From: Arthrobacter sp. NicSoilB8
GTDB lineage: Bacteria > Actinomycetota > Actinomycetes > Actinomycetales > Micrococcaceae
Direction of reading: 5' to 3'
DNA length: 64,000 nt
Assembly: GCF_019977355.1 (NCBI RefSeq)
Contig: NZ_AP024655.1
Location: 3,968,001-4,032,000 of the forward strand
Below, piece by piece: positions 21,194-53,657 of the stretch (position 1 is the first letter of the stretch; each line of letters starts with the position of its first letter). The position numbers and the translations under genes are program-made. A model generated the notes under the pieces. It saw only the letters and a list, made by a program, of their open reading frames with translations. It was not told where the DNA came from and ran no database searches.

Positions 21194-21398
21194 ACCTCAG
21201 CCTAGGCAGGGAGTGTGACGTAGGCAACACTTCGCTTCATATCCGGGAAACCTCGCGTTATCTGCCGCTTTATTGGCCGGCAAGTGTTGATTGCCGGGCC
21301 CGGTGTACTGTATTGGAGGCCGCCACGGCGCCCGCCCGGCACCTGGCATTGGCCCAGATCGACTCCGGGCACGGTGCCCGGCCGACGCAGAGGAACAC

Positions 21399-22457
21399 AT
21401 GACACACCCCTTCGACAGCTCAAACGACGCCGGCAGGGAAGACTTCAGCGAGCGACGGCGGCCCGTGAAGAAACGCCGCGGCCGCAAGGTGCTGATCGCC
21501 GTCGCCGCCGTGCTGGCGCTCGTCGCCGTCGTGGCCGGCGGTTACCTTTTCAACCTCGCCCACACCTTCGACTCCGGCAGCAGCAAGCTTGACCAGGCCT
21601 TCCCGGACGAGTCCACGCGCCCGAAGAAGACGGACAACTCGATCAACATCCTGGTGATGGGCAGCGACAGCCGTGGCGCCGCCGAGTCTGACACCGCCGG
21701 CACGCCCGCGGACCAGCGCGCGGACACGCTGATGCTCATGCACATCCCGGCGGACCGCAAGAACATCTACACCATGTCAATCATGCGCGACCTCTGGGTG
21801 GACATCCCCGGGCACGGCGAGGCGAAGATCAACTCGGCACTGGCCCTTGGCGGCACACCCCTGATGGTGCAGACCGTCGAGTCAGTTTTCCAGCAGCGCA
21901 TCGATCACGTGGCAATGATCGACTTCGAGGGCTTCAAGGGCCTCACGGACGCGCTGGGCGGGGTGACCGTGAACATCAAGCTGCCGTTCACGTCCACCGC
22001 ACTGCCGGGCCAGTCCTTCGCCCCGGGCCAGCACACCTTCAACGGCACCCAAGCCCTGGCCTTCGTGCGCGAACGCCACGCCTACGCGGACGGCGACTAC
22101 CAGCGGGTGCGCAACCAGCAGGAGTTCCTGCGGGCCATCATCAAGAAATCCACCGCCGGCCAGACGCTGAGCAACCCGTTCACAGTCAACAGCATGGTGG
22201 GCGCCGTCTCGCCGTTCGTCACCGTGGACAAGTCCCTGGATTCGGGAGCCGTGGCCGGGCTGGCGCTCGAACTCAGGGACATCCGGGCACAGAACACGGT
22301 CATGTTCACGCTGCCGACCGGCGGCACCGGCACGTCCGCGGACGGCCAGTCGATCGTGCTCGCCGACCCGAACGCCATCCAGGACATCTCGGGGGCGATG
22401 GCCAAGGGCACCATGGGCGAGTACGTCGCGGCGAACAAGCTGGAGAACGGGAACTGA
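21399..22457 (+). CDS. LCP family glycopolymer transferase 1
   Basis: A 352-residue LytR-CpsA-Psr protein. A basic cytoplasmic tail (KKRRGRK) precedes one membrane helix (about 30-50) and an extracytoplasmic LCP domain with NILVMGSDSRG, DTLMLMHIPAD, SIMRDLWVDIPG and ALAFVRERHAYADGDYQRVRNQQ. The Arg and Asp residues in these motifs bind the pyrophosphate lipid substrate. LCP enzymes move glycopolymers from undecaprenyl pyrophosphate to peptidoglycan. The ATG at 21399 has AGAGGA upstream and gives the usual N-terminus. A paralogue follows 75 bases downstream; both end in YVAANKL(E/Q)NGN. Confidence 0.93.
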   Translation: MTHPFDSSNDAGREDFSERRRPVKKRRGRKVLIAVAAVLALVAVVAGGYLFNLAHTFDSGSSKLDQAFPDESTRPKKTDNSINILVMGSDSRGAAESDTAGTPADQRADTLMLMHIPADRKNIYTMSIMRDLWVDIPGHGEAKINSALALGGTPLMVQTVESVFQQRIDHVAMIDFEGFKGLTDALGGVTVNIKLPFTSTALPGQSFAPGQHTFNGTQALAFVRERHAYADGDYQRVRNQQEFLRAIIKKSTAGQTLSNPFTVNSMVGAVSPFVTVDKSLDSGAVAGLALELRDIRAQNTVMFTLPTGGTGTSADGQSIVLADPNAIQDISGAMAKGTMGEYVAANKLENGN

Positions 22458-22532
22458 CCCGCGGCGCATGAGGCGGCCGGGGAGGTCCTTGGACCCATAG
22501 TCCGCGGCGGCCGGCGGTGGTAGCGTCCGGTC

Positions 22533-23636
22533 ATGGGGAACGCTCCGGAGCCAGCAGCCGCGGCTTCCGCGGCGTCCGGTCCCCCTGCCCCGCCGCCCGA
22601 GGCGGGCCGCCGCCGTCGGATCTTCCTGCTTGTGGGCGCCTTGCTCGTCCTCACGATCGCCGTCTCGGCCGTCGCGTTCGTCCTCACCCGGCCCCGGGCC
22701 GCGGCCCCCGCGCCGGCGGGAAGCGCCTCACCGGCTGCCGCCCCGGCCGCCGCGCCCTCGACGCCGCCCGCCCCCACACCCAGCCCGACCCCGACGCCGG
22801 AACCACCCGCCGTCGCGCTTAACATCCTGCTGATCGGGAGCGACAGCCGGGTCAACGAACGGGCCGCAGCGGCCGCCGGCAGCGCCTCCGACCAGCGCGG
22901 GGACACCCTCGTGCTGATCCACATCCCGGCGGACCGGCAGAGCGTCTACGGCATCTCGATCATGCGCGACCTGTGGGTGGACATCCCCGGCCACGGGGCC
23001 GCGAAAGTGAACGCCGGACTTGAGCTGGGCGGACTGCCCCTGATGACGCAGACGGTGGAGGCGCTGCTCGGTACGCACATCGACCACACCGTGATGGTTG
23101 ATTTCCAGGGGTTCGCGGCCATGACGGACGCGCTGGGCGGTGTCGACGTCAACGTCAAGCAGTCCTTCACGAGCACCGCCGATGACAAGGTGTATTTTCC
23201 GGCGGGCGTCAACCGGCTCAACGGGCTGCAGGCCCTGGCCTTTGTCCGCGAGCGCCATGCCTTCGCCGACGGCGACTACCAGCGGGTCCGGAACCAGCAG
23301 ACGTTCTTGAAGGCCCTGATGGCCAAGCTGGCCGCCGAGGGACGGCTGGCGGACCTCGAGACCGTGCGGAAACTCATCACGACGGTGCTGCCGCACGTGA
23401 CCGTGGACGCAAGCTCCAGCCAGAAGTCGCTCGAGGACCTCGCCTTCAGCCTCCGCCACACGGCCCCCGGACAGGCTGTTTTCTTCACGCTGCCGACCGC
23501 CGGCACCGGGTTCAGCCGGGACGGCCAGTCCATTGTCCGGCAGGACCCTGCCGCGACCGCCGCTGTCTCCGCCGCGCTGGGCTCGGGAACGCTCGCCGCA
23601 TACGTGGCGGCCAACAAGCTGCAGAACGGCAATTGA
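22533..23636 (+). CDS. LCP family glycopolymer transferase 2
   Basis: A 367-residue paralogue of the preceding protein, with an Ala/Pro-rich cytoplasmic tail, a membrane helix (about 30-52), a Pro/Thr/Ala-rich linker (about 58-90) and the LCP domain (NILLIGSDSRV, DTLVLIHIPAD, SIMRDLWVDIPG, ALAFVRERHAFADGDYQRVRNQQ). The identical motifs and C-terminus show a tandem duplication, with divergence in the linker. It probably attaches the same or a related polymer to the wall. Its stop is 29 bases before the oligopeptidase start. Confidence 0.92.
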   Translation: MGNAPEPAAAASAASGPPAPPPEAGRRRRIFLLVGALLVLTIAVSAVAFVLTRPRAAAPAPAGSASPAAAPAAAPSTPPAPTPSPTPTPEPPAVALNILLIGSDSRVNERAAAAAGSASDQRGDTLVLIHIPADRQSVYGISIMRDLWVDIPGHGAAKVNAGLELGGLPLMTQTVEALLGTHIDHTVMVDFQGFAAMTDALGGVDVNVKQSFTSTADDKVYFPAGVNRLNGLQALAFVRERHAFADGDYQRVRNQQTFLKALMAKLAAEGRLADLETVRKLITTVLPHVTVDASSSQKSLEDLAFSLRHTAPGQAVFFTLPTAGTGFSRDGQSIVRQDPAATAAVSAALGSGTLAAYVAANKLQNGN

Positions 23637-23664
23637 GGCGCCGCTCTTCGGTAGATTGGGTTCC

Positions 23665-25881
23665 ATGACCCAGACTCCCGTGCAGCCGTCCCCGCAGCCT
23701 CCCGTCGCCAAGAAGATCCCTGCCCTCCGCACACACCACGGCGACACGTTCGAGGACAACTACGAATGGCTGCGGAACAAGGAATCCGCGGAGGTGGTGG
23801 ACCTGCTCAAGGCCGAAAACGCCTACCAGGAGGCCGTGACCGCGCACCAGGAGCCGCTGCGCGAGGCCATCTTCCAGGAAATCAAGGGCCGCACCCAGGA
23901 AACAGACCTCTCGGTCCCCAACCGCAAGGACGGCTGGTGGTACTACACCCGCTCGGTCGAGGGCAAGGAATACGGGATCCACTGCCGCGTCCGGGGCCAG
24001 GACACCGGGGACCGCGTCGCGGACTGGACTCCCCCCGCCGTCGAGGCCGGCGTCAGCATCCCCGGCGAGGAAGTCCTCCTCGACGGCAACCTCGAGGCGG
24101 AGGGCAAGCCGTTCTTCGCCGTGGGCGGCGCGGCCACGACCATCGACGGCACCCTCTACGCTTACGCCGTGGACAACGCCGGCGACGAGCGCTTCACGCT
24201 GCGCATCAAGGACCTCCGCACCGGCGCGCTGCTGCCGGACGTGATCGAGAACGTCTTCTACGGCATCTCCTTCTCCCCCGACGGCAGCCGGATCTTCTAC
24301 ACCGTGGTGGACGATTCCTGGCGGCCCTACCAGGTGAAGTCCCACGTGCTCGGCACGCCTGTCGGCGAGGACCGGGTCATCTACCAGGAGGACGACGTCG
24401 CCATGTGGCTCGGCTTCGAGCTCTCCGCGGACCGGCGCCACCTGGTGCTGAGCATCGGCTGCTCCGAGTTCAGTGAAACGCGCCTGCTGCGCTTTGATGA
24501 CCCCGACGCCGGTCTCCGCACCGTGATCTCGCGCGACGAGCGCATCTTGTACGAGGCCGAACCGTTCCTGCTGCCGGACGCCTCCGGCCAGGGCGTGGAA
24601 CGGATCCTGCTGACCCACAACAAGGACGCCATCAACTCCATGGTCTCCCTCGTGGACCCGGCCGAGCTCGGCAAGCCGCTCGCCGAGCAGCACTGGAGCA
24701 CCGTCGTCGAACACTCCGACGAGGTGCGCGTCAACGGCGCCGGGGTGACGTCCACCCACGCGGTGGTCTCCGTCCGCAAGGACACTATTGAACGCGTCCA
24801 GGTCCTGCCCCTGGCCGGCCTGGGCACCCCCGAGCAGGGCGCCGCGGTGGAACCGGCCTTCGACGAGGAGCTGTACACGGCCGGCGTCGCGGGCTCGGAC
24901 TACGAGGCCCCCGTGATCCGGATGGGCTACACCTCCTACTTCACCCCGTCCCGGGTCTACGACTTCGTCCTCCCCACCCCGGAGCTTCCGGCCGGTGAAC
25001 TCCTGCTGCGCAAGGAAAGCCCGGTGCTGGGCGGCTACACGGCGTCGGACTATGTAGCCACCCGCGAGTGGGCGGTGGCCTCCGACGGGACCAGGATTCC
25101 GCTCTCCGTCCTCCGCCACGCCTCGGTCCGGCAGGATTCGACGGCGGCCGGCCTGGTGTACGGCTACGGCTCCTACGAGATGAGCATGGACCCGGGCTTC
25201 GGGATCCCCCGGCTGTCCCTGCTGGACCGGGGCGTCGTGTTCGTGATCGCGCACATCCGCGGCGGCGGCGAGCTGGGCCGGCACTGGTACGACGACGGCA
25301 AGAAGCTGCACAAGAAGAACACCTTCACCGATTTCATCGCGGCCACGGACTGGCTTGCCGGATCCGGCTGGGTGGACCCGGCCCGGATCGCGGCGATGGG
25401 GGGCTCCGCGGGCGGGCTGCTCATGGGCGCCGTCGCCAACCTCGCCCCGGAAAAGTACGCGGCGATTGTTGCGGCCGTCCCGTTCGTGGACGCGCTGACC
25501 ACCATCCTGGACCCCGAACTGCCGCTCTCGGCCCTGGAGTGGGAGGAATGGGGCAACCCGATCACGGACCCGGACGTCTACGCCTACATGAAGTCCTACA
25601 CGCCGTACGAGAACGTCCGCGCCGTGGCGTACCCGAAGATCGCCGCGGTTACCTCGTTCAATGACACGCGGGTACTGTACGTGGAGCCCGCCAAATGGGT
25701 GCAGCGGCTGCGCGAGGTGAACACCGGCAGCGAGCCGATCGTCATGAAGATCGAGATGGAGGGCGGCCACGGCGGCGCCTCGGGCCGGTACGTGCAGTGG
25801 CGCGAACGGGCCTGGGACTACGCGTTCGTGGCCGATTCCCTCGGCGCCACCGAACTGCTGCCGGGAGCCGGGCTGAAGTAA
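23665..25881 (+). CDS. ptrB: Prolyl oligopeptidase family serine peptidase (oligopeptidase B)
   Basis: A 738-residue cytoplasmic peptidase. An N-terminal beta-propeller (about 75-420) is followed by an alpha/beta-hydrolase domain with the nucleophile in MGGSAGGLLMGA and the histidine in EGGHGGASGRY. ARIRGGGELG-like text appears as AHIRGGGELGRHWYDDGKK, typical of S9A. The order and length match oligopeptidase B, which cleaves short peptides after basic residues; substrate choice here is inferred. The ATG at 23665 begins MTQTPVQPSPQPPVAKK; the longer frame runs back into the LCP gene. A long leftward open frame over this gene is an antisense artefact. Confidence 0.92.
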   Translation: MTQTPVQPSPQPPVAKKIPALRTHHGDTFEDNYEWLRNKESAEVVDLLKAENAYQEAVTAHQEPLREAIFQEIKGRTQETDLSVPNRKDGWWYYTRSVEGKEYGIHCRVRGQDTGDRVADWTPPAVEAGVSIPGEEVLLDGNLEAEGKPFFAVGGAATTIDGTLYAYAVDNAGDERFTLRIKDLRTGALLPDVIENVFYGISFSPDGSRIFYTVVDDSWRPYQVKSHVLGTPVGEDRVIYQEDDVAMWLGFELSADRRHLVLSIGCSEFSETRLLRFDDPDAGLRTVISRDERILYEAEPFLLPDASGQGVERILLTHNKDAINSMVSLVDPAELGKPLAEQHWSTVVEHSDEVRVNGAGVTSTHAVVSVRKDTIERVQVLPLAGLGTPEQGAAVEPAFDEELYTAGVAGSDYEAPVIRMGYTSYFTPSRVYDFVLPTPELPAGELLLRKESPVLGGYTASDYVATREWAVASDGTRIPLSVLRHASVRQDSTAAGLVYGYGSYEMSMDPGFGIPRLSLLDRGVVFVIAHIRGGGELGRHWYDDGKKLHKKNTFTDFIAATDWLAGSGWVDPARIAAMGGSAGGLLMGAVANLAPEKYAAIVAAVPFVDALTTILDPELPLSALEWEEWGNPITDPDVYAYMKSYTPYENVRAVAYPKIAAVTSFNDTRVLYVEPAKWVQRLREVNTGSEPIVMKIEMEGGHGGASGRYVQWRERAWDYAFVADSLGATELLPGAGLK

Positions 25882-27216: not shown

Positions 27217-27377
27217 GCCGTCATTTTCGCATGCGGATTCTTTTCAAGATCTTCAGAAATTGGTCATCATGCTTACTATTTACTGGCATGATGGGCACTT
27301 CGACGTGGAACCCGGCCGCTGGGGGCGGGGCGTCGCAGGGCTTGACCGGGCACAGGGTGCCGGAGATGGAGTTTGTT

Positions 27378-28163
27378 ATGAGCGTTGAGCAGGGAATGAC
27401 CCCGTTGACTGATGATGAGCTGATGGCGCAGGGCGGCACGGCCCTTCCGGACAAGGAAGTGGCCTCCGTCCTGGACCTGAACGCGGACCTGAACCTCGGC
27501 ATCAGCGCCGCGGCGCCGATCGATCTTGGCGTCGCTGCCAATGCCAACGTGGCCGCCCCGATCGACGCCGGTGCGTCGGCCAACGTGCTCTCAGTCGGGT
27601 CCGAGTCGCAGGCCCTCGCTGACCAGGGAACGATCATCAACCAGGGCGTCACGGGCGACGCCACGGCAGACTCCACCCAGGACAGCGTCATCGACCAGGG
27701 CGCCGACGCCGGGACCGCGGCCTCCGAACCCGCCGCCGCGGATCCGGCCGCAACGGATCCGGCCGCAACGGATCCGGCCGCGACCGACCTTGGCGGCGCC
27801 GTGGATGCGGGTGCTGTTCCTGCGGATGCCACCGGCAGCCTGCCGGACGGCACGGCCCCCGACCTGGGCGGCGCGCTGCCGACCGATATCGCCGGAGCTG
27901 CCGGCGGCGCGGGCGCCCTCAGCGGGAACCTGCTCAACGTCGACGTGAACCTGGACGCCAATGCGGGGATCGCGGCCCCGATCAACGGTGCGGTGGCCGC
28001 CAACGCCAACGTGGCCGCACCGATCGATGCGGCAGTCGGCGCCAATATCGGCTCCATCGACAGCAACGCGTTCGCCGTCGCACAGCAGGACGCCATCATC
28101 AACCAGGACATCCATGGCGACGCCACGGCTTCGGCCGACCAGCAGTCCGACCTGAAGCAGTAG
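27378..28163 (+). CDS. Internally duplicated Ala/Asn/Asp-rich repeat protein, possible precursor peptide
   Basis: A 261-residue acidic protein with no signal peptide, membrane helix or Cys. It begins MSVEQGMTPLTDDELMAQGG and then TALPDKEVASVLDLN, which could be a leader. Two modules of about 65 residues follow, at about 34-100 and 193-258. Each has a segment like VAANANVAAPIDA and then IINQ..GDATA. Between them lies a low-complexity spacer with repeated ATDPA (a 15-bp DNA repeat at 27741-27785). The ATG at 27378 has GGAG seven bases upstream; longer frames are unsupported. It is 7 bases before the M50 protease gene, so the two are coupled. I do not recognise a characterised family; a substrate for the protease is the natural inference. 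Confidence 0.72.
   Translation: MSVEQGMTPLTDDELMAQGGTALPDKEVASVLDLNADLNLGISAAAPIDLGVAANANVAAPIDAGASANVLSVGSESQALADQGTIINQGVTGDATADSTQDSVIDQGADAGTAASEPAAADPAATDPAATDPAATDLGGAVDAGAVPADATGSLPDGTAPDLGGALPTDIAGAAGGAGALSGNLLNVDVNLDANAGIAAPINGAVAANANVAAPIDAAVGANIGSIDSNAFAVAQQDAIINQDIHGDATASADQQSDLKQ
27741..27785 (+). repeat. 15-bp tandem repeat inside the repeat-protein gene
   Basis: Three copies of GATCCGGCCGCAACG, the third with one or two changes, encode DPAAT repeats in the spacer between the two protein modules. Copy number may vary between strains. Confidence 0.85.
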
Positions 28164-28170
28164 CACCTAG

Positions 28171-30702
28171 ATGAGCACTGTGCACGGAGGGCCGTCCGGA
28201 CAGGACGGTCCTTCGGTCCTGCCCGCCGGCGGCGGGGATTCTGCCGCCGCTTCGGCCCGCGGCGCTTCCGGTACCGCCGCGGCCGCCGGCCCTGCCGGCG
28301 TTACTGGTGGTCCGGCGTCGTCCGTGGCGGTCAGCGAGCAGCCGGTTCCGGTGCGGGCCGCGGGCGTCCAGCTGATCGGCGAGGCCAAGGGCTCCGGCTA
28401 CAAGGAAGCCCCGTCCCTGGTGCGCCGCGCCGACGGCCAGACCATCCAGCTCACCCGCCTGCTCTACCTCGTGCTCGAGGCGATCGACGGCCGCCGGGGC
28501 CCGGAGGAAATCGCGCGGCACGCCAGCACCGGTTTCGGGCGGCTGGTCAGTGCCGACAACGTCCGCACGCTGATCACCTCGCAGCTCCTTCCCCTCGGGC
28601 TGCTCCGGCTGGCGGACGGCTCCGAGCCCGAGGTGAAGAAGGCGGATCCGCTGCTGGGCATGCGCTTCCGGTACTCGGTGACCGATCCGGACCGCACCCG
28701 GAAGCTCACGGCGCCGTTCGCCAGGCTGTTCAATCCCCTGATCGTGGCGGCCGTGACCGTTGCGTTCCTCGGCACGTGCTGGTGGGTGCTGATGGTCAAG
28801 GGACTGGCATCGGCCACGCACGAGGCATTCGCCAACCCCGGCCTGGTGCTCCTGATCCTGGTGGTGACAGTGCTGTCGGCCGGTTTCCATGAGTTCGGCC
28901 ACGCCGCCGGCGCGCGCCGCGGCGGGGCGACGCCGGGCGCCATGGGCACGGGCCTGTACCTGATGTGGCCCGCCTTCTACACGGACGTCACCGATTCCTA
29001 CCGGCTCGGCCGGGGCGGGCGCCTCCGCACCGATCTGGGCGGACTGTACTTCAACGCCATCGTGGCCGTCGCCATCATGGGCATCTGGTGGGCCACGGGC
29101 TTCGATGCCCTGCTGCTGGTGGTGGTCACCCAGATCCTGCAGATGGTCCGGCAGCTGATGCCGATGGTCCGTTTTGACGGCTATCACATCCTGGCCGACG
29201 CCACCGGCGTCCCGGACCTGTTCCAGCGCATCAAGCCCACCCTGATGGCCCTGGTGCCGTGGCGTCCGGCCGACCCCGAAGCCCGGCTCCTGAAGCCGTG
29301 GGCGCGGGCCGTGGTCACCGTCTGGGTGCTGGTCACGGTTCCCCTGCTGGTCTTCAGCATGGCCACCATGGTGTTCACCCTGCCCCGCGTCCTGGGCACC
29401 GCCTGGGACAACGGCCTGAAGCAGCAGGCGATGCTCTCGCACAGCCTCTCCACCGGAGACTTTGCCGACGCCGCCGTGCGGGTGATCGCACTCGCCTGCC
29501 TGGCACTGCCGGTGCTGGGCATCGGCTACATTCTGCAGCGCCTGGCCCGTCAGCTGGTCACCGGGCTGTGGCGGAAGACCCGCGGCAAGGCCGTACAGCG
29601 CGCCACGGCCATCGTTGCCATCACGGCCGTGGCCGCCGGTCTCGCCTGGGCCTGGTGGCCACGCGCCGACACCTACCGCCCTGTCCAGCCCTACGAGCGC
29701 GGCACGCTGGCCGACACCACCACGGCCGTCTTCCCGGCCTCGAGCACGGGCCGGATGGCCGAGGGCCAGTCGGGACGGACCGTGGCCCTGTGGCCGGAAG
29801 GCGCCCGGAAGCCCACCCGCGACGATCCGCAGCTGAGCATGGTCCTGGTGCCCCGGCAGGCCGGCGCAGGTTCTGCCGCGGCGGCGCCGACTGCTCCTTC
29901 CTGGGTTTTCCCGTTCGACAAGCCGGCTGCGCCGGAGGACGACGGCAACCAGTCCCTCGCGGTCACCACCACGGACGGTTCGGTGGTCTACGACGTCGCC
30001 TTCGCCCTGGTCTGGGCCGACGACGGCGACTCCGTGGACACCAAGAACGAGGCCTACGCCTTCGCCAGCTGCGCGGACTGCGCCGCCGTGGCCGTGGGCT
30101 TCCAGGTGGTCCTGATCGTGGGCCAGACCGACGTGATCGTCCCGGAAAACCTCTCGGCATCCGCCAACTACAACTGCGTCCGCTGCCTGACCTACGCCCT
30201 GGCGAGCCAACTGGTGCTCACGCTCGACGGGCCCCTGAGCCGCGACGGCACCGCCAGGCTCAACGCGCTGTGGCAGGAGATCGCCGCCTACGGCAAGGAC
30301 CTGCGGGACCAGCCGCTCTCGGAGATCCAGGGCCGGCTCAGCGCGTACAAGGAACAGATCATGAACCTCATCAAGGCCGATCCCAGCGCCACCCCGGCCG
30401 GGTCCTCCGGCACGGCCGCCACGCCGGGGAGTTCGCCGGGGGCAACGCCTGGGGCCACATCTGGCGCTAGTTCAGGGGCCACCCCGTCCCCGGAAGCCAC
30501 TGCCGGAACCACGGCGCCGGCCGGCGGCCCCGCGCCGACCGGTGGTACGGCGTCGACCGCTCCGGGCTCGGGTTCAGGTTCCACGGCGCCGGCAGCGCAG
30601 GAACCGACGCAGCCCGCGGCATCGGCGACGGCCGGTTCCACAGCTCCCGCCGCAGGCACGGCCACGCCAGTTCCGGCGGAGACCACCCCGCCGGCGCCGT
30701 AG
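28171..30702 (+). CDS. M50 membrane metalloprotease with N-terminal PqqD-like domain
   Basis: An 843-residue membrane protein. Residues about 65-150 resemble a PqqD-type winged helix (LVRRADGQTIQLTRLLYLV, then VSADNVRTLITSQLL). Then come membrane segments and the zinc motif HEFGH (His240-His244), with a later FDGYH (Asp336) as the third ligand region, as in site-2 proteases of family M50. About six hydrophobic segments lie between 175 and 500. A soluble extracytoplasmic part follows with a CADC and a CVRC pair, then a C-terminal Ser/Thr/Pro/Ala-rich tail of about 110 residues. The start is ATG at 28171, 7 bases after the repeat protein gene. It likely processes or exports that partner. Related proteins are annotated as putative peptide zinc metalloproteases. 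Confidence 0.8.
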   Translation: MSTVHGGPSGQDGPSVLPAGGGDSAAASARGASGTAAAAGPAGVTGGPASSVAVSEQPVPVRAAGVQLIGEAKGSGYKEAPSLVRRADGQTIQLTRLLYLVLEAIDGRRGPEEIARHASTGFGRLVSADNVRTLITSQLLPLGLLRLADGSEPEVKKADPLLGMRFRYSVTDPDRTRKLTAPFARLFNPLIVAAVTVAFLGTCWWVLMVKGLASATHEAFANPGLVLLILVVTVLSAGFHEFGHAAGARRGGATPGAMGTGLYLMWPAFYTDVTDSYRLGRGGRLRTDLGGLYFNAIVAVAIMGIWWATGFDALLLVVVTQILQMVRQLMPMVRFDGYHILADATGVPDLFQRIKPTLMALVPWRPADPEARLLKPWARAVVTVWVLVTVPLLVFSMATMVFTLPRVLGTAWDNGLKQQAMLSHSLSTGDFADAAVRVIALACLALPVLGIGYILQRLARQLVTGLWRKTRGKAVQRATAIVAITAVAAGLAWAWWPRADTYRPVQPYERGTLADTTTAVFPASSTGRMAEGQSGRTVALWPEGARKPTRDDPQLSMVLVPRQAGAGSAAAAPTAPSWVFPFDKPAAPEDDGNQSLAVTTTDGSVVYDVAFALVWADDGDSVDTKNEAYAFASCADCAAVAVGFQVVLIVGQTDVIVPENLSASANYNCVRCLTYALASQLVLTLDGPLSRDGTARLNALWQEIAAYGKDLRDQPLSEIQGRLSAYKEQIMNLIKADPSATPAGSSGTAATPGSSPGATPGATSGASSGATPSPEATAGTTAPAGGPAPTGGTASTAPGSGSGSTAPAAQEPTQPAASATAGSTAPAAGTATPVPAETTPPAP

Positions 30703-53626: not shown

Positions 53627-53657
53627 TTGAAATAGTAAGCATGCTTTGTGTTATTCT
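53627..53657 (+). promoter_or_regulatory. Promoter of the csbD-like gene
   Basis: TTGAAA (53627-53632) and TATTCT (53652-53657) or TTATTC (53651-53656) at 18-19 bases spacing, with the palindrome AAGCATGCTT (53637-53646) in between, which could bind a regulator. This is a rather AT-rich island. Confidence 0.5.

Follow-up and report, generated by a model that had tools for sequence, protein, structure and literature searches.

Ribosomally synthesized and post-translationally modified peptide (RiPP) recognition element (RRE) domains serve as markers of modified peptide natural products (PMC10036551). In the daptide systems, an intramembrane site-2 protease carries such a domain fused to its N-terminus, and the adjoining short precursors carry a conserved leader motif, ELExMEAP, and an invariant C-terminal Thr (PMC10036551). 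For the M50 protease EpeP of the epipeptides, cleavage as well as export of the peptide has been proposed (PMC10885120). Here, a two-gene unit of Arthrobacter sp. NicSoilB8 was compared with these systems. The unit lies in a 64,000-nucleotide stretch of contig NZ_AP024655.1 (positions 3,968,001 to 4,032,000 of the forward strand; the whole stretch is referred to as the window). It consists of the gene of a two-module precursor protein of 261 amino acids, P1 (27378..28163, + strand), followed after 7 bases on the same strand by the gene of an 843-residue membrane protease, P2 (28171..30702, +), in which an RRE, an M50 protease, a CxxC domain and a low-complexity tail were recognized. The closest named relatives of both proteins belonged to Arthrobacter. 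Based on all comparisons, it was concluded that P1 and P2 probably form a self-contained unit, belonging to a stress regulon, that processes a beta-rich, unmodified surface protein by means of its leader and perhaps also exports it.

The P1-P2 pair and its linkage across genomes

The gene layout described in the sequence-only reading of this DNA, a 261-residue protein with two similar modules and a 7-base gap to the protease, was confirmed. P1 begins with a leader (residues 1-32, 27378..27473, +; motif L[ST]xxELxxxxxxxLPDKEVxSxL) that was delimited by conservation and by a leader-only profile; the positions L10, E14, L23, P24, K26, E27, V28 and S30 were invariant in 20 diverse P1 sequences. 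The leader is followed by module 1 (residues 33-107, 27474..27698, +; low-confidence strands at 78-92 and 95-106), a variable linker (residues 108-182, 27699..27923, +) and module 2 (residues 183-261, 27924..28160, +). The two modules were 55% identical over 76 positions; their alignment scored 184, and none of 1000 shuffles exceeded 81. The linker was set by its low column identity, which averaged 0.41 (residues 109-182) versus 0.71-0.87 in the modules. P1 contained 24.5% Ala, had a net charge of −34 and showed no hydrophobic or transmembrane segment. Among the 68 P1 rows compared, the length ranged from 211 to 506 amino acids and the last residue was Gln in 59 and Thr in none. The linker of two of them (L059 and L063) was enlarged by imperfect repeats (e.g. 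VVDSAGNVVGTL) to give a P1 of ~500 amino acids. P1 matched no Pfam or NCBIfam family at E up to 1. The NCBI name of several relatives, peptidoglycan-binding protein, was rejected, because a recognizable domain of that kind was absent.

The predicted structure of P2 showed an RRE-like/PqqD winged-helix fold at residues 57-150 (28339..28620, +). The M50 site-2 protease membrane region spans residues 189-494 (28735..29652, +) and includes HEFGH (28888-28902, +) and FDGYH (29173-29187, +), so that its core is intact, with HExxH and (L/F)DG present in membrane helices. Thus, the PqqD-like domain and both motifs named earlier were borne out, whereas a C-terminal CxxC...CxxC domain had been overlooked. 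This domain (residues 576-735, 29896..30375, +) was defined by alignment and by stand-alone homologues; 13 columns were invariant, all four Cys among them. The protein ends in a tail rich in Ala, Thr, Pro, Gly and Ser (residues 741-843, 30391..30699, +), assigned by composition.

A search with P2 collected 68 loci, which were related to each other and hence non-independent. In all but one of them (67), the protease gene was directly preceded by a P1 relative in the same orientation; these loci came from Micrococcaceae, Mycobacteriaceae, Kribbella, Intrasporangium, Terrabacter and a Nocardioidaceae metagenome-assembled genome. When the first in-frame Met was taken as the start, the gap between the two genes was 6-8 bases in 49 of the 67 loci and no more than 70 in 64. 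The linkage held down to a P2 identity of 46%. In a family sample of 197 genomes, P1 was present in 15, and the same 15 had an adjoining protease above 550 bits. In a phylum sample of 296 genomes, all eight long P1 proteins adjoined a protease, whose reading frame also encoded the CxxC domain in every case. P1 was therefore not found mostly without the protease, and the earlier proposal that P1 is the substrate of P2 was strengthened, as far as genome comparison goes.

Split forms and conservation of the leader

The P1 profile also detected short proteins in nine more genomes of the phylum sample. They were mostly 60-75 amino acids long, numbered 2-4 per locus and consisted of a leader (consensus LSxEELEAxxGExLPEREEMSL) and one module each, except for one L095 precursor with two. 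An RRE-M50 protease lay beside seven of the nine sets and elsewhere in the genome in G167. A separate CxxC protein was encoded near the short precursors in five of the nine stretches (L091-L094, L099) and in six of the nine genomes when these were searched as a whole. Within the family of Arthrobacter itself, a second class of protease was recorded at 13 places (349-389 bits). All 13 of these loci had 2-4 short precursors nearby, and 11 also had a CxxC protein. Judged by these split systems, P1 resembles modules fused into one protein, and P2 resembles a protease fused to its CxxC partner. The stand-alone CxxC proteins examined had a signal-peptide-like N-terminus by hydropathy and by eye; hence, the fused CxxC domain of P2 is probably located outside. 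The short-precursor family is large: a search of 5.8 billion proteins yielded at least 8000 matches (all 8000 scored candidates).

A second small peptide family was also observed near short-precursor loci (L080:1839-2066, −; L096:13641-13985, +; L137:8266-8526, −). Its pattern resembles AANVGEP...VSSxQRxxIVQR; by appearance, it is the basic counterpart to the acidic precursors, of which it may be a partner.

Further, 26 protease places scored above 250 bits in the phylum sample. Module-type precursors adjoined 15 of these, a small open reading frame (ORF) with a similar leader and a different core was found at 10, and none was adjacent at the remaining one (G167:C2). The leader-only profile was run on 3103 ORFs of 16 loci outside its training set. 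The six best ORFs (24.3-15.5 bits, E of 3e-6 to 0.0016) immediately preceded the gene of a family protease, as did the ORFs ranked seventh and eighth (8.4 and 7.5 bits), while the best shuffled ORF reached 6.5 bits. A leader that stays constant as the core varies would be expected if the leader is recognized by the RRE.

The cores themselves were of several kinds. The leader-bearing ORF directly upstream of the RRE-M50 protease in L138 (7525-7806, +) has an arginine-rich core that continues into an Asn/Tyr/Pro-rich part (NNGIYYPPPYY) and ends in Tyr/Pro. Those of L146 and L147 are of the LLGLPLVGVSDVGVNVDTTGPGWL type and unlike the module by eye. The small leader proteins beside the RRE-M50 proteases of L142, L143, L144 and L145 have VQVPIGIAANVCG-like cores with Cys; the L144 precursor matched the chaplin family PF03777 (ChpA-C) at E 0.046, which is under the cut-off.

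The upstream element

An operator- or promoter-like element, ATCATGCTTACTAT (27266..27279, +), was assigned by its recurrence upstream of P1 and ends 98 bases before the gene. Its core, CATGCTTACTA, was present in 43 of the 68 stretches upstream of P1, namely at this locus and at 42 titled Arthrobacter or Pseudarthrobacter. In the whole genome, the 14-mer had four matches with at most one mismatch and its reversed control had none; one site lay before P1, and the others lay next to a Transgly_assoc protein, next to an operon with a Holin-X protein and next to CsbD. Across 61 family genomes, the element occurred at 22 sites in nine genomes. Fifteen proteins next to these sites were given to Pfam, and 13 of the 22 sites adjoined P1 or a stress-type gene: P1 at three, Transgly_assoc at five (one under the cut-off), CsbD at two, and Holin-X, PRC-barrel/DUF2382 and Hva1_TUDOR at one each. 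Transgly_assoc, CsbD and the similar neighbouring families are presumably stress proteins. The element is thus a candidate mark of a stress regulon of Arthrobacter-like bacteria that includes P1-P2. The same upstream element, as CATGCTTACTAT, was also seen at 53632-53643 (−) of the window and in L176, L177, L180, L183 and L190-L196.

Proposed processing of P1 and its alternatives

We proposed that P1 would be made in the cytoplasm with its N-terminal leader, that the RRE on the cytoplasmic side of P2 would bind this leader, and that the M50 core would remove it within the membrane and may also move the product to the outside. The unmodified, two-module product, rich in beta-hairpins, would reach the cell surface; the CxxC domain, outside if P2 has seven transmembrane helices, would be its assembly partner or anchor, and the pair would be expressed as part of a general or envelope stress regulon. 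Leader binding, cleavage, export, lack of modification, surface location and assembly are all steps that we infer. The mechanism assigned to P2, in which it may bind a leader, cut it and possibly export the product, was drawn by analogy, with reference to PMC12338566.

The comparison with daptides shows both the likeness and the distance. P2 shares with MpaA/MpaP and DapP the fusion of an RRE to a site-2 protease and the leader-bearing precursor beside it. However, the daptide leader ELExMEAP differs from the LPxKE/LPxRE found here (LPDKEV or LPAKEV in P1 rows), the precursor cores are larger or Ala/Gln-rich, and a CxxC partner is present. P2 matched the daptide protease model NF041824 over residues 79-363 at 102.3 bits, which did not reach the cut-off of 300, when L151 and L150 scored 405.5 and 482.7 bits in the same test. 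The DapB-type RRE protein NF041823 had no match at E up to 1 in this Arthrobacter genome. P2 was therefore rejected as a daptide protease, on its score, on the absence of NF041823 and on the differing leader and C-terminus of P1. Another genome of the genus, G008, served as a positive control: it has a daptide locus (L151) with NF041820, NF041822, NF041823 (215 bits) and NF041824 above their cut-offs, and it carries a P1-P2 pair elsewhere. A maximum-likelihood tree of 54 proteases placed the 14 long two-module members in one group (100/100) and none of the three daptide rows inside the 45-row family; L150 and L151 were above the NF041824 cut-off, and L173 was labelled by eye through its precursors. 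The deep joins of this tree are unsure because of long branches.

The ORFs of 29 loci were compared all against all at E 1e-8, and families present in at least four loci were counted. The recurrent families were the precursor, the protease and their shadow ORFs; a few other clusters looked by eye like mycobacterial regional synteny or common regulators, apart from one unidentified cluster of four. No modification enzyme was conserved across the 29 loci, which leaves room for enzymes encoded elsewhere. The daptide dehydrogenase, aminotransferase and methyltransferase were likewise not conserved there, and no genome-wide search was made for them. The lack of conserved modification enzymes makes P1-P2 unlike a standard RiPP system.

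Other known systems were related more loosely. P2 matched the epipeptide protease EpeP/YydH (NF058609) at E 1.8e-7 but with 31 bits against a cut-off of 225, and the radical SAM enzyme that epipeptide loci include was not seen with P1-P2. The RREs of lasso-peptide and PQQ biosynthesis (TbiB1, PqqD) share the fold of P2 residues 57-150. TbiB1 and PqqD hand leaders to other enzymes, unlike the RRE studied here, which is part of the membrane protease. Two hallmarks of RRE-dependent leader processing, a winged-helix RRE on the processing enzyme and an adjacent precursor with a conserved leader, were both encountered. The daptide features tested were lacking and no modification enzyme was seen beside the pair; P1-P2 was classed as a variant of RRE-dependent leader processing. 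A CxxC partner domain and a substrate of the size of P1 were not found for such systems in the accessible literature, and neither M50 nor daptide appeared in the main text of PMC12710340. In P1-P2, an RRE is fused to a membrane protease, no modification step is recognizable, and the putative substrates are 211-506 residues long. If true, the proposal would mean that recognition of a leader by an RRE also serves as a maturation and export address for proteins in Gram-positive bacteria, and that some matches of RRE-guided genome mining would need reinterpretation.

The same data bear on an alternative in which the products are secreted bioactive peptides, bacteriocin- or daptide-like, with P1 as a large variant and the modifying enzyme encoded elsewhere. 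The homology of P2 to the daptide leader protease, the 2-4 short paralogous precursors per split locus, as in RiPP clusters, and the short and hydrophobic cores of some precursors are in keeping with it. We nevertheless consider this alternative unlikely, given that no modification enzyme is conserved among the 29 loci compared and NF041823 is missing from this genome, that P1 is long, acidic in this Arthrobacter and devoid of a terminal Thr in all 68 rows, and that stress-type genes have the upstream element as well.

That last link would also suit a regulatory role, in which P2 would be a regulated protease that signals from within the membrane, and P1 a signal or anchor that, once cut, drives gene expression instead of being a secreted product. 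Site-2 proteases often act in signalling. Such a role appears improbable for a P1 that has neither a transmembrane segment nor a Pfam match and is represented elsewhere by several short paralogous precursors per locus, which is unlike regulators. Finally, the view that P1 and P2 are mere neighbours and P2 acts on another substrate, to which the relatedness of the 68 loci lends something, is very hard to reconcile with a linkage kept down to 46% identity, with precursors that alter their form yet stay with the protease, and with a leader retained beside related proteases whose precursors carry other cores.

Returning to the leader-guided processing of a surface protein, its weakest step is the surface assembly. 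In the P1 modules, Gln recurs at 83, 89, 101 and 107 and again at 237, 243, 255 and 261; the P1 model places strand pairs at 78-106 and 232-260 with low confidence, and the CxxC proteins show by eye an Asn/Ala/Gln pattern similar to the modules. Together, these features of sequence and model suggest a beta-rich surface assembly. Curlins are marked by repeat features, and the comparison with curli (CsgA/CsgB) and chaplins is an analogy through the Gln spacing and the predicted hairpins. In contrast to both, P1 has no apparent signal peptide and would follow a different secretion route; it matched neither a curlin nor a chaplin family of Pfam at E up to 1, nor any PDB sequence. A broader view, which we regard as possible but doubtful, is that of an undescribed secretion-assembly pathway widespread in Actinomycetota, in which the RRE, borrowed from peptide natural-product biosynthesis, would read the leader, the M50 protease would cut and translocate unmodified beta-hairpin proteins with Gln/Ala ladders, and a secreted CxxC repeat protein, joined to the protease in the case of P2, would template or cap the assembly of these proteins into a stress-induced surface fibre. 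P1 would then be a two-module fusion of the 2-4 separate ~65-residue subunits of other lineages.

Several observations weigh against the proposed processing. The mean predicted local distance difference test (pLDDT) score of the P1 model was 49, which makes the hairpin and surface reading weak. The P2 model was poor over the CxxC domain, with pLDDT below 50 at 555-613, 618-642 and 648-679. Some unrelated winged-helix chains matched the fold of the P2 RRE with the scores of true RREs, and Foldseek gave no match for this region at E ≤0.001. The substrates of site-2 proteases are usually unlike soluble, acidic proteins, so the soluble-looking P1, with its charge of −34 and no transmembrane segment, would be atypical. 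Among the 29 loci, no exporter recurred as a conserved family.

The leader evidence is uneven as well. The ORFs ranked seventh and eighth were hardly above the best shuffled ORF, and the ninth (E 1.5) lay away from a protease. The leader profile gave E <0.01 in only six of the 10 loci with other cores; the leaders of L141, L139 and L146 had E of 0.27-1.8, close to the best shuffled score, and that of L147 was recognized by eye only. The cores of L142-L145 are faintly module-like, and the short-precursor profile extends into some cores; hence, only the cores of L138-L140, L146 and L147 are clearly different by eye.

As for co-occurrence, the L062 protease had no P1 relative, the P1 of G444 was only partial, and the protease and precursors of G167 were on separate contigs. 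For the short precursors of G006, which lie at a contig end, no protease was found; this genome and G046 were the two of the 16 genomes with CxxC matches that showed no protease match. The CxxC protein was not found in three of the nine short-precursor genomes (G124, G130 and G184). The two second-class loci lacking it were L160, which begins at a contig end, and L163, with none in the stretch fetched. The upstream element was not found in 25 of the 68 stretches, including all those from outside Micrococcaceae, its reversed control had two matches in the 61 family genomes, and nine of its 22 sites were without P1 or a nameable stress-type gene, a molybdopterin oxidoreductase being among the neighbours.

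The genes around the pair in the window were also scanned and encoded two LCP proteins, a prolyl oligopeptidase, a deaminase, a GNAT protein, a thioesterase and one protein that had no Pfam match. Two tandem genes of the LytR-CpsA-Psr family, followed by the prolyl oligopeptidase gene, occupy positions 21291-25881 (+).

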